Positions 3,000 to 49,528 of a DNA stretch of 54,782 bases are shown piece by piece. Location: NCBI GenBank assembly GCA_022822085.1, contig JAJECK010000116.1, forward strand, positions 1 to 54,782. Reading direction: 5' to 3'. The stretch comes from Candidatus Poribacteria bacterium (lineage in GTDB: Bacteria; Poribacteria; WGA-4E; WGA-3G). Every line of letters begins with the position of its first letter. Position 1 is the stretch's first letter. The position numbers and the translations under genes are program-made. Under the pieces are notes generated by a model. That model was given only the letters and a program-made list of their open reading frames with translations. It was not told the DNA's origin and did not search any database.

Positions 3000-3119
3000 C
3001 AGGACTTACGCATTCCCCCTTGATAAGGGGGTAGGGGGGTTAAAAAGTCGCCAGTTTAGATATTTAACCCCCTAAATCCCCCTTATCAAGGGGACTTTAA
3101 GAGGAAATGCGTCTGTCCA
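3000..3119 (+). mobile_element. Family A miniature element, copy 1
   Basis: The left end is CAGGACTTACGCA; the right end is a decayed complement. The interior is a long imperfect palindrome of TTGATAAGGGGG-type and CCCCCTTATCAA-type arms. ATATA flanks both sides (2995-2999 and 3120-3124), consistent with a 5-bp target duplication. It sits upstream of pstS, outside the predicted pstS promoter. Confidence 0.7.
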
Positions 3120-10089: not shown

Positions 10090-10221
10090 CAGGACTTACG
10101 CATTTTCTCTTAAAGTCCCCTTGATAAGGGGGATTTAGGGGGTTAAAAAGACTAAAAACACTGAAATATCGCACCATTTAACCCCCCTACCCCCTTATCA
10201 AGGGGGAATGCGTAAGTCCTG
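10090..10221 (+). mobile_element. Family A miniature element, copy 2
   Basis: A 132-bp element with ends CAGGACTTACGCA and TGCGTAAGTCCTG. It is flanked on both sides by AAATT (10085-10089 and 10222-10226), a clean 5-bp target duplication. Its interior pairs as one long hairpin of G-rich and C-rich arms. It ends only 10 bp before the start codon of the third ATPase, so the normal ribosome-binding region there is replaced by element sequence. Confidence 0.82.
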
Positions 10222-11014: not shown

Positions 11015-11146
11015 TAGGACTTACGCATTTTCTCTTAAAGTCCCCTTGATAAGGGGGATTTAGGGGGTTAAAAAGACTAAGAACACTGAAATATCGCACC
11101 ATTTAACCCCCTTACCCCCTTATCAAGGGGGAATGCGTAAGTCCTG
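11015..11146 (+). mobile_element. Family A miniature element, copy 3
   Basis: A 132-bp element nearly identical to copy 2, with ends TAGGACTTACGCA and TGCGTAAGTCCTG. It is flanked by CGTTA at 11010-11014 and 11147-11151, a second independent example of a 5-bp target duplication. It separates ATPase 3 from phoU. The close similarity of copies 2 and 3 argues for recent movement. Confidence 0.82.
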
Positions 11147-18291: not shown

Positions 18292-18486
18292 ATATAGTAA
18301 AATCCGAAAATATGTTCACATTTCAATTAACAACAATCCCACACTATTGCCCGCTGGCGAGGTTTCCTAACCTCGCTAATGTAAGGTAATTATTGATTTA
18401 CCTATAACAACAATCCGCACACTATCACCCGCTGGCGAGGTTTCCTAACCTCGCTAATGTTCAGGTAATTATGGATTTAACTATAA
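18292..18486 (+). mobile_element. Family C miniature element with a doubled interior
   Basis: The termini match family C (TATAGTAAAATCCG at left, GGATTTAACTATAA at right). The internal unit, starting AACAACAATCC and running through the core hairpin to the closing CTATAA-like end, occurs twice (about 18329-18405 and 18406-18484). It therefore has two hairpins (18357-18376 and 18435-18454) instead of one. This could come from tandem insertion or unequal exchange. The following 100 bp before the helicase gene hold nothing I can identify. Confidence 0.65.
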
Positions 18487-21469: not shown

Positions 21470-21585
21470 TATAGTAAAATCCGAAAATATGTTCACATTT
21501 CAATGAACAACAATCCCTCCACACTCACGCTGGCGAGGTTTCCTAACCTCGCTACTGTCCAGGTAATTATGGTTTTTACTATAAT
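21470..21585 (+). mobile_element. Family C miniature element, simple copy
   Basis: A 116-bp element with termini TTATAGTAAAATCC and GGTTTTTACTATAA and a single core hairpin at 21534-21553. This is the plainest copy and serves as the reference for the nested and doubled ones. It lies between the VWA gene and the dehydrogenase gene. Confidence 0.75.
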
Positions 21586-29280: not shown

Positions 29281-30921
29281 TTGCCGAAAAAGAAAACCTC
29301 AACAGATTCCTCCCAAACCACACTCCTCCTGGAAACCGAAAACGAAGAACAATTAGATTTACCTAAACTTGAAACATGGCTGTGGGATGCCGCTTGTGTG
29401 ATACGCGGCGCAACCGACGCACCAAAATTCAAAGATTTCATCTTACCGCTGATCTTCTACAAACGACTCTCCGATGTATTTGATGACGAATTTGAAAAAC
29501 ACGTTGAAGAATTCGGAAATGAGGAAATTGCCAGAAAGATTACTGAAGCAGACCATGCGGATGCACTTGAAAAGGATCGCGACGACCCGATTGTTCGGTT
29601 TTATATTCCACAAGAATACAGTTGGGAAGCACTTCGTAACCATCCCGCTGACGGTAATCTGGGACAGTTTGTTACCGATGCAATGCGTGAGGTTGCGCGT
29701 GCTAACCCTCGGCTACAAGGTGTGCTGAATGTAGAAGATTTTAACGAACGTCAGAGCGGACAACGACTTATTGACGATGATCGCCTCGAAAAATTGATTG
29801 AGGTTATAAGTCAACATCGGCTTGGACTTGAAGATGCGGAACCAGATATCCTCGGACGGGCTTACGAATATCTGTTGCGGAAGTTCGCCGAAGGACAGGG
29901 ACAAAGCGCAGGTGAGTTCTACACGCCGAAAGAGGTCGGAGCGTTAATGGCACGTCTTATTAACCCTGAACCCTATACCACGATATACGATCCTGCGTGC
30001 GGTTCTGGCGGTTTGCTTATCAAAGGAAAACTTCAATTTGAACAGACACATTCAGATCAAGAAAAAAGCCAAGCACCAAATATTTATGGACAGGAATTAA
30101 CCCCAACAACCTACGCAATGGCAAAGATGAACGCCTTTCTGCACGACTTTATCAGCGCGGATATTCAGATAGGCGATACCTTCCGCAATCCCCGTTTCGT
30201 GGCTGATAATTCAAAACTCCAAAGGTTTGACTATGTAATTGCTAATCCGATGTGGAATCAGAAGGAATATGACGATGACTTTTACGAAAATGATAATTGG
30301 AACCGATTCTCGGACGGAACCCCACCAAGTTCCTCAGCAGATTGGGCATGGGTACAACACATGCTTGCCTCTCTAAAAGATAATGGACGCGCAGCGATTG
30401 TCCTTGACACTGGTGCTGTCTCCCGCGGTTCCGGTAGCAAACACACCGACCGCGAACGTGATATCCGCAAAAAATTCGTTGAAAAAGACCTAATTGAAGG
30501 CGTGGTCCTGCTACCCGAAAACCTGTTTTATAACACAACCGCACCGGGCATTATATTGCTACTGAACCGCAGCAAACCCGAGGAACGCAAAACACAATTC
30601 CTGCTTATCAATCTCTCACAGCATTTTGAGAAGGGAAAACCGAAAAACATCCTAACTGATGAAGGAATTACTGCAGCAACAGAGGTCTATGAAGCATGGG
30701 AATCGCGTGAAAAGCTAAGCAGCGTCATCACACTTGAAGATGCACAGAAAACAGATTACAACCTCAGTCCCTCCCAGTTTGTAGATGTCGGAGACAAAGT
30801 TGAGCACCGTCCAGTGAATGAAATATTAGCAGACCTAACAGAAGCACGCATCGCCCGCGAAAAAGCAGATAACGCATTGGAAGATGTGTTAGCGCAGCTT
30901 GGATTAAATGAAAGGCATTAG
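29281..30921 (+). CDS. hsdM: Type I restriction-modification DNA methyltransferase HsdM
   Basis: A 546-residue N6-adenine methyltransferase subunit. The N-terminal HsdM helical domain (LETWLWDAACVIRGATDAPKFKDFILPLIFYKRLSDVFDDEF) precedes the methylase fold with the S-adenosylmethionine motif YDPACGSGGLL (near 236). The catalytic motif is ANPMW (near 321), where NPPF or NPPY is more usual. With HsdS it methylates the host's recognition sites. TTG start, with AAGGAG 8 nt upstream. The last 180 bases recur, decayed, at 35773-35936 and 37112-37242. Its partners hsdS and hsdR are 7.7 and 12.4 kb downstream, separated by other genes. Confidence 0.93.
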   Translation: MPKKKTSTDSSQTTLLLETENEEQLDLPKLETWLWDAACVIRGATDAPKFKDFILPLIFYKRLSDVFDDEFEKHVEEFGNEEIARKITEADHADALEKDRDDPIVRFYIPQEYSWEALRNHPADGNLGQFVTDAMREVARANPRLQGVLNVEDFNERQSGQRLIDDDRLEKLIEVISQHRLGLEDAEPDILGRAYEYLLRKFAEGQGQSAGEFYTPKEVGALMARLINPEPYTTIYDPACGSGGLLIKGKLQFEQTHSDQEKSQAPNIYGQELTPTTYAMAKMNAFLHDFISADIQIGDTFRNPRFVADNSKLQRFDYVIANPMWNQKEYDDDFYENDNWNRFSDGTPPSSSADWAWVQHMLASLKDNGRAAIVLDTGAVSRGSGSKHTDRERDIRKKFVEKDLIEGVVLLPENLFYNTTAPGIILLLNRSKPEERKTQFLLINLSQHFEKGKPKNILTDEGITAATEVYEAWESREKLSSVITLEDAQKTDYNLSPSQFVDVGDKVEHRPVNEILADLTEARIAREKADNALEDVLAQLGLNERH

Positions 30922-30976
30922 TTTATTGCAGAAGTTAACTCACACTGAACAAACACCTGATAGGAGCTGAAAATCC

Positions 30977-33900
30977 ATGACAATACTCGATTTAGTCTTC
31001 ACAGCCTATAATATTATAGGCACTGGATTTTCTATTGCTGGTGGTATCAACCACGCCATACAACATCTTTGCGAAACTACAGCAGAAGATCTTTTCAAAA
31101 AATCTTTTGATAAGGTAGTTAAGCAATACGCGTCTGACTTCGCGGATCAAACTGACCCAAAAACAGTTGAAGTTGATTCTAATTTACTTGATAAAGTTAT
31201 TACTTCACTTAAAGATGTTGATGAAGTCCAATTCGCACAATTATATGAAAGTGAGAAAATCGCAAAAATCACAACACTTTTTCAGAACTGTATTATCGTT
31301 CCCAACCATCAATTGCCCAACATGGATTTTGAACGAAGAATTCGTCCAATTATTGAGAGAGTGATAATTGATTTTTATGCACAACTTCCATTCAATCAGG
31401 GAGCATTCAATCAAATTGTCCTTGAATTTATACAAAAAAACACTACAAATCAAGAGGCCACTCAATCTACACTAACGGAGTTTATCAGAGAAATTGAACA
31501 GGTGCAGTTGGAAGTTAGTGACCGTTTAACGCAAGATCTCCAAGCCATAAAAGATGATACCGAAAAAATTAAGGATGATAATAAGGAGCTTAAGCAAACG
31601 ACGGGTGCGATTTTAGATGAAGTACGCCGCATTAACACACCAAACAATGATTTAATAAAAACAGCAGTCGCAAGAGAACATCATGCAGAAATAGACAATG
31701 CTCGAAACTTTCTCAAAAGTCACAAACCTAAAACTTCTCTTGAGTTATTAGAAACCCTGAAGAAACGAACATGGAAAGATGCTTCGGATGATCTAAAATT
31801 TAGTATTCTCACTAATATGGCAGCTGCTCAATTTGCCCTAAATAACGAACAAGATGCTGCAAAGTTGTTACTTCAGGCATTTCAATACGATTCTGAAGAC
31901 GAAAAAGCATTATCTAACCGTGCTTTGGCTCACCTCTTATTGGGAGAAACGGAATATGCTGCAGACTACGCAAAACAGACACTGGAAAAGAATCCTACAA
32001 ATACGGATGCTTATGTAATTCTCATTGGAATTTCTGAAGAGAAAGAAACACTTGATGAAATAATTGCTAAAGTTCCTGACTATTTGCAAGATTCCCTACA
32101 AATTGCTTACGCTATCAGCGAATTAGCAAAGCAACGTGAGAATTTTGATGCTGCTAAAAGATGGGGTGAAATCATGGTAGACCAGGGAAACGCTCCTGAT
32201 TTCAAGGCTGCTTTCGCAACTATCCTGATTAACCAAGTATTAGAAGATAATCTTGCTGTAGGTACTAGTCAACTCTATAAGGCACAAAAGGAACAATTAC
32301 AACGGGCAATAGGATTTCTTACTGAAGCGTGGGATTGTGTTTCCAATACAGAATTAAAAGATTATAGAGTAGATTGGATCATTAACAGAGGAATGGCACA
32401 TTTTCACCTTGGCGAGTTGATAGAAGCAAAAGAAGATTTTGATACTGCCTTAGAAATTGAAGACTCAAATCCAAGTCTGATCAAAAACCGTGCGTTTTTA
32501 GCTTTTGAGTGTGGAGATATAGCGGAAGCGATTGAATTTATAGAATCAATCCAATCTGCCCCCGAAGTGCCTGAAGCACCTATTATACTTGCTAATTTTC
32601 TCTTAGCAGATAAACGGTTAGATGAGTCTATAACAATACTTAATGATTTTTTGCAGACAGATTTACCACCAGAACTTCAAGAAAAAGCAAGCCGTTTGCT
32701 CATTGATGTTTATATTACTGATAAACGTTTTGATGATGCATTAGAAATATCAATAGCGATGCGCGAGTCAACACCAAAGAGTATACCAAATCTTGTTGAC
32801 GCTGCTTGCATTTTTAGCGCAGATCAAAAACGAGATGAAGCAATTTCTCTACTCAAAGAAGCATACGACTATGTTCAGGATGGTGAGGAATTTCTTGATA
32901 TTGTGGAATTGGCTGACCAACTCTACAGCCATAAACAATTTAAAGAAGCTGCAACACTTTATGAAAAACTTGCCGACACAAATCAGAACTCCCAATTGAC
33001 ACAATGGTTAGTGCAAAGTTACTATAATTCTGGTGAAATTGCAAAAGCACTTAAGATATGTCAGAAACTTCGTGAGAAATATGGACCACTTGAAAACATT
33101 TCTGTGATGGAAGTGATGATTCATGAAGAATATGGTGATATGAACCAAGCCGAAACGGTATGTAAAGAATATTTAACAAAATTTCCTACTGATTATGATA
33201 TGCGAATTCGTCTCGGAATGATTCTAATTCGATCTTCTAAAGAAACTGAAGTTGATAATGTGTTAGATAGTTTTTCTGAAATCAAAGACTTTTCATACCT
33301 AAATGATCTTTCTTTGGAAGGATGCTTTGAATTAGCCCTATTACATCAAATGAGATTTCAGCCGGAAAAAGCACTGGAGATAATGTATGAAGTGCGTAGA
33401 AAACATTTTGATGATCCCAATGCCCATCTTTTATATGTCAAGACCTTCCTTTCAGTTGAAAAAGAAATTCCTGAGGTGCTAAACCCTACTCAAGTTGAAA
33501 AAGATACAGCCGTCAAGATCAGCATTTCTGACGAAGACCAATGGTATATCATAGAAAAACGTGTAGATGCAGATATTAAACGCGACGAACGTGATGTGAA
33601 TGACCCTTTCGCTCAACAATTAACCGGGAAAAACATAAAAGACGAGGTGGGTTTAGGGGAGAAAATCCTCGGACCAAAGACTGGAAAGATCGTTGATATC
33701 AAGAGTAAATTTTCTTATGCCCATCAAGAGAGTTTTCGTAAATACGAACATCTATTTCCTTTAGACCAGGGCATGGATAATATGAAAATAGATGATTCAG
33801 ATGACATCGATGATAAAGAAAGATTTCAACAAATGTTTGAAATGATTGATAGGAGACAAGATAAAATAAATGAAATTGAAAAACTATATAAGGAAGAGAA

Positions 33901-35362
33901 CCTGACAATCGGGACTTTTTCAAGATTAGTTGGTAGCAATAGTTTAGATACATGGGGCACCCTCATGGGTAACCTTGACTTAGGGATTAGGTGTGGTATC
34001 GGTGACCTTGACGACAGAAACAGGTTACTTAACCTACTTAATGACTCCAACCCCAAACTGGTTGTAGATATAATTTCTCTAATCACTTTACACAGTTTGG
34101 ATGCTGCGGATATTGTGGTCAGAGCATTCGGAAAATTATGCGTTGCTCAATCGACTATTGATGAATTACAGAGCATTATCATTGAAAGAGAGGGAATGTG
34201 GTCTAAACGCGAGGGAATGACAGTTGGTAAAAAAGGAAATCGGTATGTAAAACAAATTATCAGTCCTGAGGAAATGAAGCAGGGAATAGAATATTTAAAA
34301 GACATTATTGACTGGATTAGGGAGAACTGTGAAGTTGGCAAAGCCACCGCTGGGTCAGAGATGAACCAATTACGCAGGAGAGAACTCAATGACATGCTGC
34401 AACCGCATTTCCTTGATACTGTCCTTCTTGCAAGCCAACCAGGGCACCTACTTTTTTCGGATGATGGTCGACTCAGACTTTATGCAAAAACAAGCCTCAA
34501 TAGCGATGCTGGCACAAACTTTCAAATTGACGGTGTGTGGACACAAGTTTTATTGGAACACTGTGTTATGCAAAATCTCCTTGATAAATCTGATTACGAT
34601 GAGATGACAATAAAATTAGTTTGTTCACATTACTATCACACGCAATTTGATGCCGATTTGTTAATGGAAGTGGCTAAACTTTCAAATTGGAAGCTCTCTG
34701 AGCCTTACAACAGTTTTGTACTTGCTTTAGGTAGAGAACGAATGCATGGACATTCGGCATTAGACGTGTGCGTTGATTTTCTCTTTAAACTTTGGGAGGA
34801 ATCAATTACTTTCAGACAAAGAGAATTCTTGACGTTGGGTTTATTAACTGGACTTACTTATGGACGAAATGCTGACACAGTATTGAACCGACTTGAATAT
34901 CTAATTCAAAATAAGCATAGACTTTTTTTGCCCGTTGAAAACAGTATTCTCAGACAAATCCGTAATTTTCAACAGATCTATCCTCTTAAAGATAATTTCA
35001 TGTTTTTGGCAGAAAATGATATTCGTCTTAAAGGAACACGTGTAGGTATAGAAACTATCCTATACGAATATATTGACAATAGTAGACCGCCAGAAGTAAT
35101 CGCTGATCACTACTATACACCCACACTGGAACAGATTTACGCAACGATCCTATATTATCTTCAAAATCAAGAAGAAGTTGGTACATATTTGGAGGATCAT
35201 CTGGAATACTGCCGAACGGCCCGGGAGGAATACGAGAAAGATCCGCCACCCGGAGTTGTTCGCCTACGTAAACTTATAGCAGAAAGTAAAAATGTCTCCA
35301 ATAATTCGCAACATGACTCAGCATGCACACCACAATCTCCATCTAAAAACGAACAGGAATAG
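30977..35362 (+). CDS. Giant TPR protein with GreA/B-C-like and PIN nuclease domains
   Basis: A 1461-residue protein. The N-terminus (1-230) has a short hydrophobic start, a helical region and a coiled coil (about 175-225). Residues about 230-840 are degenerate TPR-type helical repeats. Residues about 850-930 (DQWYIIEKRV to GPKTGKIVDIKSKFSY) resemble the C-terminal fold of GreA/GreB. Residues about 1020-1200 look like a PIN ribonuclease: VVDIISLITLHSL, then QSTIDELQ, then LLFSDDGRLRLYA supply the acidic residues in order. This matches the TPR-GreABC-PIN architecture associated with conflict systems; I infer an RNA- or transcription-directed defence effector. It lies 55 nt after hsdM, and the next gene overlaps its stop. 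Confidence 0.72.
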   Translation: MTILDLVFTAYNIIGTGFSIAGGINHAIQHLCETTAEDLFKKSFDKVVKQYASDFADQTDPKTVEVDSNLLDKVITSLKDVDEVQFAQLYESEKIAKITTLFQNCIIVPNHQLPNMDFERRIRPIIERVIIDFYAQLPFNQGAFNQIVLEFIQKNTTNQEATQSTLTEFIREIEQVQLEVSDRLTQDLQAIKDDTEKIKDDNKELKQTTGAILDEVRRINTPNNDLIKTAVAREHHAEIDNARNFLKSHKPKTSLELLETLKKRTWKDASDDLKFSILTNMAAAQFALNNEQDAAKLLLQAFQYDSEDEKALSNRALAHLLLGETEYAADYAKQTLEKNPTNTDAYVILIGISEEKETLDEIIAKVPDYLQDSLQIAYAISELAKQRENFDAAKRWGEIMVDQGNAPDFKAAFATILINQVLEDNLAVGTSQLYKAQKEQLQRAIGFLTEAWDCVSNTELKDYRVDWIINRGMAHFHLGELIEAKEDFDTALEIEDSNPSLIKNRAFLAFECGDIAEAIEFIESIQSAPEVPEAPIILANFLLADKRLDESITILNDFLQTDLPPELQEKASRLLIDVYITDKRFDDALEISIAMRESTPKSIPNLVDAACIFSADQKRDEAISLLKEAYDYVQDGEEFLDIVELADQLYSHKQFKEAATLYEKLADTNQNSQLTQWLVQSYYNSGEIAKALKICQKLREKYGPLENISVMEVMIHEEYGDMNQAETVCKEYLTKFPTDYDMRIRLGMILIRSSKETEVDNVLDSFSEIKDFSYLNDLSLEGCFELALLHQMRFQPEKALEIMYEVRRKHFDDPNAHLLYVKTFLSVEKEIPEVLNPTQVEKDTAVKISISDEDQWYIIEKRVDADIKRDERDVNDPFAQQLTGKNIKDEVGLGEKILGPKTGKIVDIKSKFSYAHQESFRKYEHLFPLDQGMDNMKIDDSDDIDDKERFQQMFEMIDRRQDKINEIEKLYKEENLTIGTFSRLVGSNSLDTWGTLMGNLDLGIRCGIGDLDDRNRLLNLLNDSNPKLVVDIISLITLHSLDAADIVVRAFGKLCVAQSTIDELQSIIIEREGMWSKREGMTVGKKGNRYVKQIISPEEMKQGIEYLKDIIDWIRENCEVGKATAGSEMNQLRRRELNDMLQPHFLDTVLLASQPGHLLFSDDGRLRLYAKTSLNSDAGTNFQIDGVWTQVLLEHCVMQNLLDKSDYDEMTIKLVCSHYYHTQFDADLLMEVAKLSNWKLSEPYNSFVLALGRERMHGHSALDVCVDFLFKLWEESITFRQREFLTLGLLTGLTYGRNADTVLNRLEYLIQNKHRLFLPVENSILRQIRNFQQIYPLKDNFMFLAENDIRLKGTRVGIETILYEYIDNSRPPEVIADHYYTPTLEQIYATILYYLQNQEEVGTYLEDHLEYCRTAREEYEKDPPPGVVRLRKLIAESKNVSNNSQHDSACTPQSPSKNEQE

Positions 35363-35721: not shown

Positions 35722-35772
35722 CAATGAACCGACTCCGTTCAATCTGCTTCATTCGCGAAAAGTTGAAACATT

Positions 35773-35936
35773 GAAAATGCACAGAAAACGGATTACAACC
35801 TCAGTCCCTCCCAGTTTGTAGGTGTCAATGCCGCAGTTGTACACCGTCCCGTAAATGAGATATTAGCAGACTTAACAGAAGTACGTATCGTTCGCGAAAA
35901 GTAGATAACGCATTGGAAGATGTGTTAGCGCAGTTT
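35773..35936 (+). pseudogene. Remnant 1 of the hsdM 3' end
   Basis: This stretch repeats the last part of hsdM (from about 30739): GAAAATGCACAGAAAACGG onward, with the codons for DYNLSPSQFV, HRPVNEILADLTE and NALEDVLAQ still readable. A 2-nt deletion in the codons for EKADN creates a stop, and the end has drifted to CAGTTTAAA. It has no start and no methylase domain, so it is a tail fragment, not a gene. It lies directly after the DUF5615 gene. Confidence 0.85.
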
Positions 35937-35982
35937 AAACTTAATAATAACAAAATTATTTAGTTTCTCTATTTCATTGAAA

Positions 35983-37047: not shown

Positions 37048-37111
37048 CCGATACACGTTTTCTTGTCAGAGGTCGCGACTTCTAAATAACAGAATTTGAG
37101 TGGTCATAGCA

Positions 37112-37242
37112 GTAGATGTGGTGACAAGGTAGTACACCGTCTAGTGAATGAAATATTAGCGGACCTAACAGAAGCACGTATTGCTCGCGAAAAAGCGGAT
37201 AACGCATTGGAAGATGTGTTAGCGCAGCTTGGTTTACAGTAA
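37112..37242 (+). pseudogene. Remnant 2 of the hsdM 3' end
   Basis: A second copy of the hsdM tail, more intact than remnant 1. After a 1-nt deletion near 37120 it reads VHRLVNEILADLTEARIAREKADNALEDVLAQLGLQ and stops at TAA 37240-37242. The only differences from hsdM over this part are a few substitutions and the very end (GLQ instead of GLNERH). It follows the Rpn gene and precedes the small membrane protein. Confidence 0.87.
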
Positions 37243-37336
37243 AACGCAATTACTAATTTGGACTTGGAAGTTTATGATTTTTTGTAGACTTTTATTATCA
37301 TATACGTTATAATGTATGATACACACTGTTTTATAG

Positions 37337-38310: not shown

Positions 38311-38589
38311 AAAGCTAAATTTACTTTTACGCCTCAAAGCGATTTTATAAACTTTGTTGATAGTTTTGGTTATGATGATGTCAAACTCGATGAACTTAAA
38401 TCTAAACTCAAATCACTTGAAGTATATACTAATTCATATTCAAGCCTACTTCAGATTAACGACGACCTTACCACAGTTCATAAAGTACGCGGTGAAGAGT
38501 ATAAGAAAATTGAGTTAGAAATTACGAAAATTTTATGCAGTAAAAATCCCAAGCTTTATTTTGAAAAATGGCTAGAATTTAATGGCTGA
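38308..38589 (+). CDS. Small protein of unknown function, coupled to hsdS
   Basis: A 93-residue, charged, mostly helical protein (KLDELKSKLKSLEVY, KVRGEEYKKIELEITKIL) with no motif I recognise. It has a strong AGGAGAG site, and its stop overlaps the hsdS start by 8 nt, so the two are translationally coupled. Possible roles include a restriction accessory or antitoxin-like factor; nothing in the sequence decides. Confidence 0.6.
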   Translation: MKAKFTFTPQSDFINFVDSFGYDDVKLDELKSKLKSLEVYTNSYSSLLQINDDLTTVHKVRGEEYKKIELEITKILCSKNPKLYFEKWLEFNG

Positions 38590-39901
38590 TATTTCTCAAA
38601 ACCCCTCAGATATCAATAAACAGACAGAGGTTATCGAGATACTTGAGAGTTGGAAGACTATACGATTTGGAGAAGCAGTAACATTTACAAAGAAGCCGAG
38701 GGATTTACGATATTCAGAATATAATAAAATTCCGTTTGTGCCGATGGAATTGATTCCAATTGCCAAATTATCTTCTGAAGAATTCATTCTCAAAACGAAC
38801 GATGAACTAAAAAGCGGCACCTATTTTGAACCTGGGGACATTCTACTACCTAAAATCACACCATCCTTTGAAAATGGGAAACAGTGCATCATTAAGGAGT
38901 TGCCTACGCCATTTGGTATTGCAACAACCGAGGTCATTCCAATTCGAGAAGTGGAAGGCATCAGCGATATATCCTATCTTTTTTATTTCCTATTGCTCTC
39001 TAATGTTCGCACTTCGCTTGCTGGAAAGATGCAAGGGACAACTGGTCGACAGCGATTAAGTAAAAACGCGCTTGTCAACTTGCAGATTCCCCTACCCCCA
39101 CTCCCCGAACAACGCGCCATCGCCTACACCTTACAAACAATCCAAGAAGCAAAGTTCACCCGCCAACGCGAAATCGCATTAGAACGAGAACGCAAAGCAG
39201 GGTTGATGGATTATCTCTTTTCACACGGCACGAAAGGCGAACCCCGCAAGCAAACCGAAATTGGCGAGATTCCTGAGAGTTGGGAGACAAAACGTTTGGG
39301 GGAAGTGGTTACATTTACAAAGAAACCGAGAGACTTACGATATTCAGAATATAATGAAATTCCGTTTGTACCGATGGAATTAATTCCGATTGCCAAACTA
39401 TTCTCTCAAGAATTCATGCTAAAAACGAATGACCAACTAAAAAGCGGTACCTATTTTGAGACTGGAGATATCTTGCTACCTAAAATTACACCCTCTTTTG
39501 AGAATGGAAAACAGTGTATCATAACGGAAATGCCAACGCCATTTGGTATTGCAACAACTGAGGTAATTCCAATTCGGGAAATAGAAGGCGTTACCGATAT
39601 ATCCTATCTTTTCTATTATCTATTACTTCCTAATGTTCGTACTTCACTTGCGAGTAAAATGGACGGTTCAACAGGTCGACAGCGTTTAAGAAAAGAAGCA
39701 CTTGTTAACTTGGAAATTCCGTTACCCTCCCTTCCCGAACAACGCGCCATTGCCAATGTATTTCGAGCAATTGATGAAAAAACAGCAGCCCTTGAAAAAG
39801 AAGTTGAACATTTAGATGAACTATTTCACGCCATGCTTGAAGAACTCATGACAGGGCAGCGGTCTGCTGTACCGCTAATTGATACTGAGATGAACGTGTG
39901 A
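38582..39901 (+). CDS. hsdS: Type I restriction specificity subunit HsdS with two near-identical TRDs
   Basis: A 439-residue HsdS. Two target-recognition domains (about 22-175 and 228-385) are separated and followed by the helical spacers (LPEQRAIAYTLQTIQEAKFTRQREIALERERKAGLMDYLFSHGT and LPEQRAIANVFRAIDEKTAALEKEVEHLDELFHAMLEELMTGQ). The TRDs are almost the same protein: both read TFTKKPRDLRYSEYN.IPFVPMELIPIAKL, LLPKITPSFENGKQCII and PTPFGIATTEVIPIRE. Usually the two differ and read two unrelated half-sites. Here the pair predicts a symmetric, palindromic target. DNA identity between halves is also high, with many silent changes. Confidence 0.92.
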   Translation: MADISQNPSDINKQTEVIEILESWKTIRFGEAVTFTKKPRDLRYSEYNKIPFVPMELIPIAKLSSEEFILKTNDELKSGTYFEPGDILLPKITPSFENGKQCIIKELPTPFGIATTEVIPIREVEGISDISYLFYFLLLSNVRTSLAGKMQGTTGRQRLSKNALVNLQIPLPPLPEQRAIAYTLQTIQEAKFTRQREIALERERKAGLMDYLFSHGTKGEPRKQTEIGEIPESWETKRLGEVVTFTKKPRDLRYSEYNEIPFVPMELIPIAKLFSQEFMLKTNDQLKSGTYFETGDILLPKITPSFENGKQCIITEMPTPFGIATTEVIPIREIEGVTDISYLFYYLLLPNVRTSLASKMDGSTGRQRLRKEALVNLEIPLPSLPEQRAIANVFRAIDEKTAALEKEVEHLDELFHAMLEELMTGQRSAVPLIDTEMNV

Positions 39902-43368: not shown

Positions 43369-46290
43369 ATGTCTGAACGTTCAGCAGTCCAAGAACCGAT
43401 GCTTGAATATGCCGATGAAATCGGGTGGCAGCGAATTTCGCCATCAGAAGCCATGCGCATGCGTGGTGGCAATACCGCCGCGCGCTATTTTACTGATGTG
43501 TTACAAGCGCAACTCTTAAAACTCAACAAGGGTATCATAGACGGCTCCAACTGTGATGACGTGATGCGGAAGCTCGGTTTACTCAAATCAACACTTGAAG
43601 GTAACCAGATAGCACTATCTTGGATGCGTGGTGAACAGTCAACTTTTGTTCCAAGCGAAAACCGAGAACTCAATGTCACACTTATTGATTTTGAGAACCC
43701 CGACAATAACCTATTCCATGTCACCGATGAATGGGAACAGAAAGGTGTTGTCCACACCAACCGCGCCGATGTGGTCTTTCTAATAAACGGCATACCAATT
43801 GCAGTAGTGGAAACAAAATCCGCCCACAAACGGGACGGATTAGCACTCGGTGTTGATCAGATTCGCCGTTACCATCGCGAAACGCCTGAAATGTTCACCA
43901 CTGCACAACTCTATGTTGTCACGCATCTACGAGACCTTCTCTATAGCGTGACGTGGAACACCAACCGCAAAAATATCTTCAATTGGAAAACAGACGAAGT
44001 TTCCTGTCCACCTGATAAGGGGGATTTAGGGGGTTGGGACGTTAGTGGGGTAAACTATGAACAGAAGGTAAAGACATTTTTCGAGCGCGAACGTATGCTG
44101 CAAGAATTGCAGCGGTCTATTATTTTCCAGAGCAGAGACGACCAACTCACTAAAGTTGTGCTGCGTCAACACCAGACGCGTACAGTGGAAAAAGTGATTG
44201 ATCGGGTTAACGATCCGAACAAAACGCGCGGGCTTGTTTGGCATACGCAAGGCAGCGGCAAAACGCTCACTATGATAACAATTGCCTCACGACTCCTGCG
44301 CGGTGGGGAACAAGCGGAAAAGCTTACCGTACTAATGATTGTTGACAGGAATGAACTGGAAAGCCAACTCTTTAGAAATATCAACGCTTACGGCATCACA
44401 ACGCTTGAAGTCGCACAAAGCAAGGAGGACTTAGAAAGGATTTTAGCGTCCGATCACCGCGGTTTGATCGTGTCCATGATTCACAAGTTTGATAAGAGAC
44501 CCGCAAACCTTAACACAGGAAAAAACGTTATCGTCCTGATTGACGAAGCACACAGAACGACAGGTGGGGATTTCGGAAATTACTTGATGGCTGCCCTGCC
44601 AAAGGCAACCTATATCGGATTTACCGGCACCCCGATTGATAACCTTTCTAAAGGGGAAGGCACTTTCAAAATATTCGGCAAAGACGATGAACAGGGATAT
44701 CTTGATAAATATGGTATCGCCGAATCTATTGAAGATGGCACAACTTTAAGGTTAAACTATGCCCTTGCACCATCTGGATTACGGGTGGAGCCAGAGATAT
44801 TAGATCAGAAATTTCTAAGTCTGGTAGAAGCGGAAGGTGTTAGCGACCCCGATGAACTCAACGCAATCCTCGACCAAGCTGTCAAACTAAAAGAGATGAT
44901 GAAAGCATCTAACAGGATTGAGGCAATTGCTAAGTTCGTCGCTAAAGACTTCAAGGAAAGAATTGAACCGATGGGATTCAAGGCGTTTCTGGTCGGAGTA
45001 GACCGTGAGGCGTGCGCCCTTTACAAAGAAGAATTGGATAAGCACCTACCACCAGAATATTCGGAAGTCGTCTATTCACATAACAATCAGGATAACGAGT
45101 TAATGAAAAAATATCATCATTCGGAGGAGCAGGAAAAGGAGGTCCGTAAGAATTTTATTGACAAAAAATCGCAACCGAAAATCCTGATTGTAACCCAAAA
45201 ATTATTAACTGGATTTGATGCGCCGATCCTTTACTGCATGTATCTTGACAAACCGATGCGGGATCATGTGTTGTTACAGGCAATTGCACGTGTCAATAGA
45301 CCGTATGAAGATGACGATGGATTGGTAAAACCCGTAGGGTTCGTAGTAGATTTTGTCGGTATCTTTGAGAAATTGGAGAAAGCACTCGCCTTCGATTCTG
45401 ACGAAGTGGAGAGCGTCCTTCAAAACATTGACGAACTCAAAGAAAGATTTGCAGAGATGATACGCGAAGACGCACAGCAATATCTACCTTTCGCCGAAGG
45501 CTCGGACGATAAAGCAATAGAACGTGCAATTGAATATTTTGCGGATAAGGAGGTCCGAGAAACTTTTTTCACCTTCTTCAAACACTTACAGAATCTCTAT
45601 AACATCCTTTCACCTGATCCTTTCTTACACCCATTTTTAGAGGATTATCAAGCACTTGCATCGCTATATAGATTAATTTATAACGCAAATTCTGACAATA
45701 TTCCTGTTGATAAAGAATTGACAACTAAGACACAAGAACTGTTACAAGCGCACACGGAAGGCAATTTAGTTGAGTTGCCTGATGAAATTTATGAATTGAA
45801 CGAAACCACTTTGAAGGAACTAAACCAGAGCGATGTCTCTGATACGGTTAAAGTGATGAATTTGCGGAAAGCGTTGCGGCAAACAGTAATCAAGGAAGGT
45901 GAATCAAAACCGTTTCTTATCCCAATCGGTGAACGCGCGGAAGCAGCCATAGAAACCTATGACAATCGTCAGTTAGGAACAAAAGATGCATTAACTGAGT
46001 TCCTGAAGTTAGCTGAAGAAGTTTCACGCGCTGAAAGAGAACAAAATCAGGCAGAATTAGGTGATAACGCTTTTGCTGTCTATACAGTTCTGAGAAATGT
46101 TAGAGATGATGTTACACCCGAACAAGCACAAGCTGTCAATCAAATTTTTGAGAAATACCCTGACCATCAGTGGGACGAACACCAAGCAAAAGAATTACGC
46201 AGTATGCTCTATAAAACGTTAAGCCCAACAGTTGGGACAAAAGATCTTATTGAAACAACAAACAAATTGCTAAAGTTGAAACGTGTATGA
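43369..46290 (+). CDS. hsdR: Type I restriction endonuclease subunit HsdR
   Basis: A 973-residue HsdR. The N-terminal nuclease has the D...ExK site: NRADVVFLINGIPIAVVETKSAHK (ETK near 147). The helicase core follows with WHTQGSGKTLTM (near 291), VLIDEAHRTTGGDFG (near 390), GFTGTP and the motif VI region QAIARVNRPY, then a helical C-terminus that docks on the methylase. It translocates DNA and cuts unmodified foreign DNA. Between NIFNWK and NYEQKVKTFFERERML there is an extra SCPPDKGDLGGWD stretch encoded partly by family A element sequence (44013-44035). Its stop overlaps the next start as ATGA. Confidence 0.94.
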   Translation: MSERSAVQEPMLEYADEIGWQRISPSEAMRMRGGNTAARYFTDVLQAQLLKLNKGIIDGSNCDDVMRKLGLLKSTLEGNQIALSWMRGEQSTFVPSENRELNVTLIDFENPDNNLFHVTDEWEQKGVVHTNRADVVFLINGIPIAVVETKSAHKRDGLALGVDQIRRYHRETPEMFTTAQLYVVTHLRDLLYSVTWNTNRKNIFNWKTDEVSCPPDKGDLGGWDVSGVNYEQKVKTFFERERMLQELQRSIIFQSRDDQLTKVVLRQHQTRTVEKVIDRVNDPNKTRGLVWHTQGSGKTLTMITIASRLLRGGEQAEKLTVLMIVDRNELESQLFRNINAYGITTLEVAQSKEDLERILASDHRGLIVSMIHKFDKRPANLNTGKNVIVLIDEAHRTTGGDFGNYLMAALPKATYIGFTGTPIDNLSKGEGTFKIFGKDDEQGYLDKYGIAESIEDGTTLRLNYALAPSGLRVEPEILDQKFLSLVEAEGVSDPDELNAILDQAVKLKEMMKASNRIEAIAKFVAKDFKERIEPMGFKAFLVGVDREACALYKEELDKHLPPEYSEVVYSHNNQDNELMKKYHHSEEQEKEVRKNFIDKKSQPKILIVTQKLLTGFDAPILYCMYLDKPMRDHVLLQAIARVNRPYEDDDGLVKPVGFVVDFVGIFEKLEKALAFDSDEVESVLQNIDELKERFAEMIREDAQQYLPFAEGSDDKAIERAIEYFADKEVRETFFTFFKHLQNLYNILSPDPFLHPFLEDYQALASLYRLIYNANSDNIPVDKELTTKTQELLQAHTEGNLVELPDEIYELNETTLKELNQSDVSDTVKVMNLRKALRQTVIKEGESKPFLIPIGERAEAAIETYDNRQLGTKDALTEFLKLAEEVSRAEREQNQAELGDNAFAVYTVLRNVRDDVTPEQAQAVNQIFEKYPDHQWDEHQAKELRSMLYKTLSPTVGTKDLIETTNKLLKLKRV
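44013..44035 (+). repeat. Family A element fragment inside hsdR
   Basis: Twenty-three consecutive bases (TGATAAGGGGGATTTAGG followed by GGGTT) match the left arm of the 132-bp elements at 10090 and 11015 exactly. They are in frame and encode DKGDLGG in an HsdR loop. The flanking bases CC on the left also match the family partly. Confidence 0.8.
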
Positions 46291-46631
46291 ATTCAGAAAA
46301 TAGATTGGATAGTCCTATAGATTTGAAAGATGCAGTGTTGCAGTGGGCAGACCGCATCGGTGTTGAGGTGCGGGAGATACATTTGCGTGAAATGCGACAG
46401 AAGTGGGCGTCCATATCAACCAACGGTAGATTGACACTCAACACTGAACTGCTCAATTTACCGGAAACGTTGACAGAATTTGTAATTGTGCATGAACTGG
46501 TGCATCTCCTTGTACCAAATCACGGCAAATTGTTTAAAGGGTATATGTCGGCATATCTACCAGATTGGGAAGAACGGCAGCAGTGCCTAAAAATGAACGG
46601 CGATGCACTTAGTGAGAACCCCGCTAAATAA
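46287..46631 (+). CDS. DUF45/YgjP-type zinc metallopeptidase
   Basis: A 114-residue zincin with the site HELVHLLVPNH (H69, E70, H73, H79) and the LNTELLNLPETLTEFVIVHELVH context of YgjP/DUF45 proteins. Its ATG overlaps the hsdR TGA (ATGA), so translation is coupled. Genes of this family are often found beside hsdR, but their role is not clear to me; cleavage or turnover of a restriction subunit is a guess. It is shorter than free-standing YgjP (about 160-230 residues), lacking the N-terminal beta part. Confidence 0.85.
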   Translation: MNSENRLDSPIDLKDAVLQWADRIGVEVREIHLREMRQKWASISTNGRLTLNTELLNLPETLTEFVIVHELVHLLVPNHGKLFKGYMSAYLPDWEERQQCLKMNGDALSENPAK

Positions 46632-46781: not shown

Positions 46782-46894
46782 TGAAGATTAATTTATTAAT
46801 TCGGTCCTTTTCTATCCGTACGAGGCAGGTGTCCTCCGTCGCTGGCGAGGTTTCCTAACCTCGCCACATTACCGAAATTATTTTTTAATCTTCA
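46782..46894 (+). mobile_element. Family D miniature element, isolated copy
   Basis: A 113-bp element with ends TGAAGATTAATTTATT and TTTTAATCTTCA and a core hairpin at 46844-46865. Together with the uvrA tail remnant it accounts for the left half of the gene-free stretch 46632-47247. The right half (46895-47247) is AT-rich, with no recognisable feature. Confidence 0.75.
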
Positions 46895-49411: not shown

Positions 49412-49528
49412 TTATAGTTAAATCCATAATTATCTGGATATTAGCGAGGTTAGGAAACCTCGCCAGCGGGGATGGTGTGGGGATTGTTGTTAATTGAAAT
49501 GTGAACATATTTTCGGATTTTACTATAA
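49412..49528 (-). mobile_element. Family C miniature element in the operon leader
   Basis: A 117-bp copy in reverse orientation to 21470-21585, with ends TTATAGTTAAATCC and GGATTTTACTATAA and a core hairpin at 49444-49463. It lies between the promoter at 49323-49351 and the first operon gene. Confidence 0.72.

Follow-up and report, generated by a model that had tools for sequence, protein, structure and literature searches.

An in-frame copy of a short G-rich palindromic repeat in the hsdR gene of a Candidatus Poribacteria bacterium

The stretch of DNA analysed here, called the window in what follows, comprises 54,782 nucleotides of a Candidatus Poribacteria genome and holds the hsdM, hsdS and hsdR genes of a type I restriction system (Table 1). 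The identity of HsdR is supported by the curated cut-off of TIGR00348, which its product passes, and by the presence of hsdM and hsdS within the same window; HSDR_N and SWI2_SNF2 domains were found in the product. The last 200 bases of hsdM are followed downstream by two repeats that are 60-85% alike (30734-30929, 35771-35965 and 37064-37259), and each hsdM-end repeat precedes another gene separating hsdM from hsdS. Judged from this arrangement, the intervening genes look as if they had been added along with duplications of the hsdM end; a TPR protein with a PIN-TPR-GreABC domain also lies between hsdM and hsdS (30977-35362). The two halves of hsdS (38618-38917 and 39248-39547) are 82% identical over 300 bases, and the half sites read by the two target recognition parts may therefore be almost the same. 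Another palindrome, GGCGAGGTTTCCTAACCTCGCC, occupies at least seven places in the window, inside larger repeats (289-324, 2789-2824, 18343-18378, 18421-18456, 21519-21554, 46831-46866 and 49444-49469). No match to Rfam was obtained in the window.

Table 1. Positions of the genes, insert and repeat elements in the 54,782-nt window
Feature	Position	Strand	Remarks
Family A-like MITE, third copy	3000..3119	-	One end diverged
Family A MITE, 132 bp	10090..10221	+	Terminal repeats CAGGACTTACGCATT; 5-bp target duplication AAATT
Family A MITE, second copy	11015..11146	+	CGTTA at both flanks
hsdM, same type I system as hsdR	29281..30921	+	N6_Mtase and HsdM_N
hsdS, same type I system as hsdR	38582..39901	+	Methylase_S
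hsdR, type I restriction subunit R	43369..46290	+	973 aa, intact frame; TIGR00348 478 bits against a cut-off of 284.55
Inserted stretch in hsdR, VSCPPDKGDLGGWDVSGV	43999..44052	+	18 codons in place of the PT of relatives; protein and DNA alignments
G-rich palindromic core CTGATAAGGGGGATTTAGGGGGTT, common to MITE arms	44012..44035	+	Sequence match
YgjP-like metallopeptidase gene	46287..46631	+	Overlaps the end of hsdR

Where HsdR relatives read NWK-TDEPT-NYE, the protein of the window reads NWK-TDE-VSCPPDKGDLGGWDVSGV-NYE, as seen when it is aligned with other Poribacteria rows, 24 in one case and 31 in the other. The first-pass annotation of this DNA had described an inserted loop of about 18 residues between NWK and NYE, which agrees with the 18 codons found there, whose net gain is 48 bp (18 codons for 2), or about 16 residues. 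It had placed the segment at 44005-44045, a range that covers most of the insert and falls short of the full replaced stretch. The peptide across the insert is VSCPPDK-GDLGGWDVSGVNYEQK. Except for its first base, the segment 44012-44035 has the sequence of the family A MITE arm, and the 23 bases from 44013 to 44035 match exactly and encode, in the hsdR frame, DKGDLGG (residues 216-222), just as the annotation had noted. Extended to 30 bases (44006-44035), the match with the family A copies at 10115-10144 and 11040-11069 is 28/30. Only the hairpin arm is represented in hsdR; the ends and the middle of family A are absent. In an alignment to EcoR124I HsdR, the loop falls where the nuclease region ends, ahead of the motor. 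An AlphaFold model, which is of modest quality (mean pLDDT 68.8, pTM 0.38), predicts residues 208-228 as coil with pLDDT below 50. A 29-nt unit of the repeat is predicted to form a 7-bp hairpin (z -1.60, 6 of 200 shuffles equally good), and for the stretch in hsdR the prediction is weak (z -1.04, 32 of 200 shuffles).

The 23-mer occurs at four places in the window, namely in hsdR, at 10122-10144, at 11047-11069 and, on the reverse strand, at 3066-3088, while 100 dinucleotide shuffles of the window gave a mean of 0.00 occurrences with up to 3 mismatches. In the whole genome (5.63 Mb, 158 contigs) it was found at 60 places with up to 2 mismatches, and the reversed-pattern control gave 0. The hsdR copy is the only one of these 60 that lies in frame in a clear gene; two further places fall in antisense open frames, which have 352 and 164 codons. 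Within this genome the core is most often carried by family A. Intact family A copies, with terminal repeats of 15 bp, measure 131-133 bp in 14 of 15 cases and 186 bp in one, and all 15 are flanked by a 5-bp target duplication, which brings the typical total to 136-138 bp; the copy that was tested (132 bp, or 137 with the duplication) has stops in all six frames. The core is also present within a second MITE family with other ends (type B), in 12/12 of the copies found in the same genome (a thirteenth pattern match, L224, is an unrelated gene), and type B elements lacking the core, which would reveal its entry, were sought among them with none found. CTTCC was considered as a target duplication around the core in type B and dropped, as it is not present in all copies. 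At several intergenic places the core stands without either set of terminal repeats. Since it occurs in a second MITE family and also outside both sets of ends, the core behaves as a cassette carried by MITEs. In a relative, an insertion sequence of about 1.1 kb (L391:352-1437) has the ends CAGGACTTACGCATT, a 5-bp duplication TCATT and a DDE_Tnp_1 transposase of 353 aa, and its ends do not contain the G-rich core. This insertion sequence is likely to be the mover of the family A MITEs.

HsdR relatives were drawn from the family, the phylum and named contigs, and among 31 distinct Candidatus Poribacteria proteins covering the site five are filled and 26 are empty, the latter with NWK-xDE-PT-NYE or nearly so; the loop, which the first-pass annotation had suggested seeking in homologues, is therefore present in several of them. 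Besides the HsdR of the window (genome G000, row L003), the filled alleles are L007 of G008, with the insert APRPSDKGDLGDWRVGEL, L013 of G030 and L026 of G046, both with APLIRGVGGL, and L225 of G073, from another family, with APLIRGVEGL and then 14 more residues. All five inserts start three codons past the conserved W-K and have lost the same PT codons. Those of L003 and L007 place 54 nt where relatives have 6, and their types differ in reading frame and length from those of L013, L026 and L225. Full-length proteins measure 955-957 aa when empty and 964-978 aa when filled, which makes the insert loop the only site of length difference greater than about 2 residues. The hsdR of L026 is split over two frames near residue 850, and this allele may thus be broken. 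Elsewhere, in G005:C211 (L176), an hsdR fragment covering residues 1-84, with one stop, has a complete family A-like MITE at a distance of about 1 kb.

The same peptide in homologues from genomes without MITEs, which the annotation had named as the contrary case, did not turn up in the sequences compared: it is absent from 28/28 HsdR proteins of other phyla (49 rows of at least 40% identity among 79 named loci, 28 of them outside Poribacteria), and all five genomes with a filled hsdR bear other hairpin copies. The pattern CCCCYTGATAAGGGGG has 80 places in G000, 17 in G008, 15 in G030, 26 in G046 and 12 in G073, with the hsdR copy included where it matches. It is present in 55 of 84 Poribacteria genomes, with 0 for the reversed control; two genomes with an empty hsdR (G004 and G017) have none and G010 has one. 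Y1 transposases were considered as movers of the cassette, and no clear link with cassette numbers was seen in 21 genomes: 18 of these have Y1 genes, including the cassette-free G004, G013 and G017, and G016 and G006 have neither.

The cassette is not confined to hsdR, as it was found in frame in six further gene families, with some orthologues filled and others empty. A short-unit pattern, searched in 84 genomes with at most 1 mismatch, gave 46 places among the matches listed, and 20 of 30 loci taken from it were in frame in an ORF of more than 300 aa (one gene being counted twice). Filled rows were 8 of 24 plus one degenerate in F1 (no Pfam match), 4 of 22 in F2 (peptidase M24, where LLA-GIKTV becomes LLA-TPQPPLSGGQDGDF-GIKTV), 4 of 15 in F3 (radical SAM), 3 of 18 from two genes in F4 (ABC ATPase), 2 of 10 from one gene in F5 (multihaem cytochrome) and 3 of 11 in F6 (sulfatase-modifying factor with BNR), fractions that are not estimates of frequency because the families were chosen for the repeat match. 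Four rows of F1 (L249, L257, L260 and L265) come from genomes outside the 22 searched, and L238/L277 and L274/L304 are the same genes entered twice. Both orientations and four frames are represented among the copies, and five of the six frames of the short unit are open. No target duplication was seen at the in-frame copies of F1-F6. Tandem enlargement of the cassette was found within F1, F2 and F3; in L257, L249, L288 and L282 the enlarged cassette lies in coding genes and the frame is always kept. Two long ORFs, L382 (657 codons) and L380 (609 codons), also contain an in-frame hairpin (AITPLIRGARGVAQ and HSIIPLDKGASR, respectively). When 30 hairpin copies were sampled irrespective of genes, 5 fell within ORFs of 200 aa or longer, compared with 547 of 846 random positions at the same loci, which indicates that most copies are intergenic, like ordinary MITEs.

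Taken as an explanation of the insert, the direct in-frame capture of a G-rich palindromic cassette of about 30 bp in a flexible loop of hsdR is the reading that we consider quite probable. The cassette, with the consensus GCCCCCCTGATAAGGGGGG(T/A)NGGGGGGTT or the variant CTGATAAGGGGGATTTAGGGGGTT, would be a module that at least two MITE families in these genomes contain and that also stands alone, and would have been copied directly into the hsdR frame near the end of the nuclease region, adding about 16 residues without stopping translation. Because it is readable in nearly every frame, an insertion that is a multiple of three can survive in a tolerant loop. We infer that the cassette is either mobile on its own or copied through template switching with no target duplication; such switching at C-runs would leave none, nor would the action of a single-strand transposase. 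It seems that translation runs through the insert, that the loop is tolerated, that the added peptide is neutral or almost neutral, and that the HsdR enzyme bearing it works. What the alleles and genomes show in favour of direct capture is an insertion with empty counterparts, a sequence shared with the repeat, recurrence in hsdR, presence and absence in six further families and a lack of MITE ends. Against it stand the inserts of L003 and L007, which at 54 nt for 6 exceed a bare cassette and leave tails over, the intergenic position of most copies in the unselected sample, the single clear in-frame case among the 60 places of this genome and the modest quality of the structure model. The material analysed also gave no direct evidence that the bare cassette moves.

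The first-pass annotation had proposed another origin, in which a whole family A MITE entered hsdR and was trimmed by deletions to an in-frame remnant. An in-frame insertion in a variable loop, derived from a genomic repeat, is borne out by the alleles; reduction of a whole element is not, and we regard it as unlikely. The arm match extends to the ATTTA variant of the core, which is typical of MITE arms and makes descent from a MITE copy possible, and family A is also the commonest source of the core at hand, yet the match is limited to the internal hairpin cassette, which is not exclusive to family A, and short forms free of MITE ends occur within the reading frame of many other genes. None of the 31 hsdR alleles contains a complete family A element, its terminal repeats or its interior, and neither CAGGACTTACGCATT repeats nor a 5-bp duplication surrounds any of the five filled inserts. 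Furthermore, an element of 132 + 5 bp is not a multiple of three and has stops in every frame; it would have left the gene dead pending repair, and this repeatedly at one codon. A role as a functional linker, for which selection would have retained the peptide in the R subunit, appears more doubtful still, and indeed very unlikely: the frame is kept in every carrier and the loop, by the alignment to EcoR124I HsdR, lies between nuclease core and motor region, but 26 of 31 relatives lack the peptide, its sequence and even its frame vary between carriers, and the loop is predicted to be disordered. Chance or convergence of low-complexity sequence, for which the glycine-rich peptide might speak, can practically be dismissed, in accordance with the earlier judgement that a chance match was very improbable, since the identity is at the DNA level over 23 bases and the shuffles and reversed-pattern controls, which refute it, gave 0.

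Whether direct capture took place once or several times is a separate matter. In a gene tree of 31 rows with the insert columns omitted (L054 was dropped as a copy of L229, and L029 and L031 do not reach the site), five changes are needed for the five carriers, and single clades of L013 with L026 (p-AU 2e-07) and of L003 with L007 (p-AU 0.007) are rejected. One ancient insertion in hsdR, spread among Poribacteria by recombination of the restriction locus and diverging afterwards, would be compatible with direct capture, as it concerns only the number of events; we hold it to be conceivable, though somewhat doubtful. The common start codon and the common loss of the PT codons in all carriers speak for it, as does L003, which at nucleotides 500-800, around the insert, agrees with L007 at 31 sites and with its sister L006 at 20, the counts elsewhere being 106 and 253 (Fisher p 2e-05, for an interval picked after seeing the data); L003 and L007 thus probably represent one insertion with exchange. 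The inserts of L013 and L026 differ at 1 of 33 bases, yet their flanks (30 nt on each side) are alike at only 51 of 60 positions, no better than with empty rows, and the difference in frame and length between the two groups of inserts also opposes a single event. From the tree, the exchange signal and these flanks, we count two to four events and claim no more. The use of one codon in all carriers may reflect a preference for this target, exchanges confined to very short tracts or a tolerance for inserts that is limited to one very narrow place. A bolder proposal, which we find rather improbable, treats the cassette as a self-contained mobile element of about 30 bp that is coding and can home to preferred sites with no target duplication. 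It would have reached the same hsdR codon by independent entry into three or four lineages of Poribacteria, and would be distributing short Gly/Pro-rich linkers across the symbionts' proteome.

Several known systems resemble the cassette in part. The sections on Rickettsia palindromic elements (RPE) in two papers describe units of about 100-150 bp, in frame in many unrelated genes, in only some orthologues and at tolerated places (Ogata et al., 2000, 2002; PMC10969869, PMC2229807). The Poribacteria cassette shares with these elements the in-frame position, the orthologues with empty sites (in hsdR and all six families) and a predicted hairpin; unlike RPEs, which in those sections yield longer peptides, it measures about 30 bp, belongs to another phylum and is also nested inside MITEs. 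REP sequences are characterized, in the part of the source that deals with them, as short, high-copy, extragenic hairpins moved by RAYT (Y1) transposases, two inverted hairpins forming a REPIN (PMC3116915). Family A is like a REPIN in having two inverted hairpins, whereas the cassette is also found in frame in genes. Its 15-bp terminal repeats, its 5-bp duplications and the DDE insertion sequence with the same ends in a relative liken family A to MITEs moved by DDE transposases, from which the hsdR insert differs by having neither ends nor duplication, its resemblance being to the internal arm. Small dispersed repeats of cyanobacteria, reportedly described by Elhai et al. in 2008, are said to be apparently mobile and to occur also inside other repeats; they have their very small size in common with the cassette, which is from Poribacteria and not from cyanobacteria.

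To our knowledge, the discussion of coding palindromes has dealt mainly with Rickettsia and Wolbachia, and a search of open papers on MITEs, palindromes and inverted repeats of Poribacteria found none describing such an element. We rate the Poribacteria cassette as a new variant of coding palindromes, which brings this habit, with a unit of only about 30 bp, to a sponge-associated phylum unrelated to Rickettsia. Orthologues with empty sites are at hand, so each birth of a peptide loop can be traced as a separate event, and it becomes directly testable whether very small repeats move alone. Working proteins thus seem able to gain short peptides from a very small repeat.
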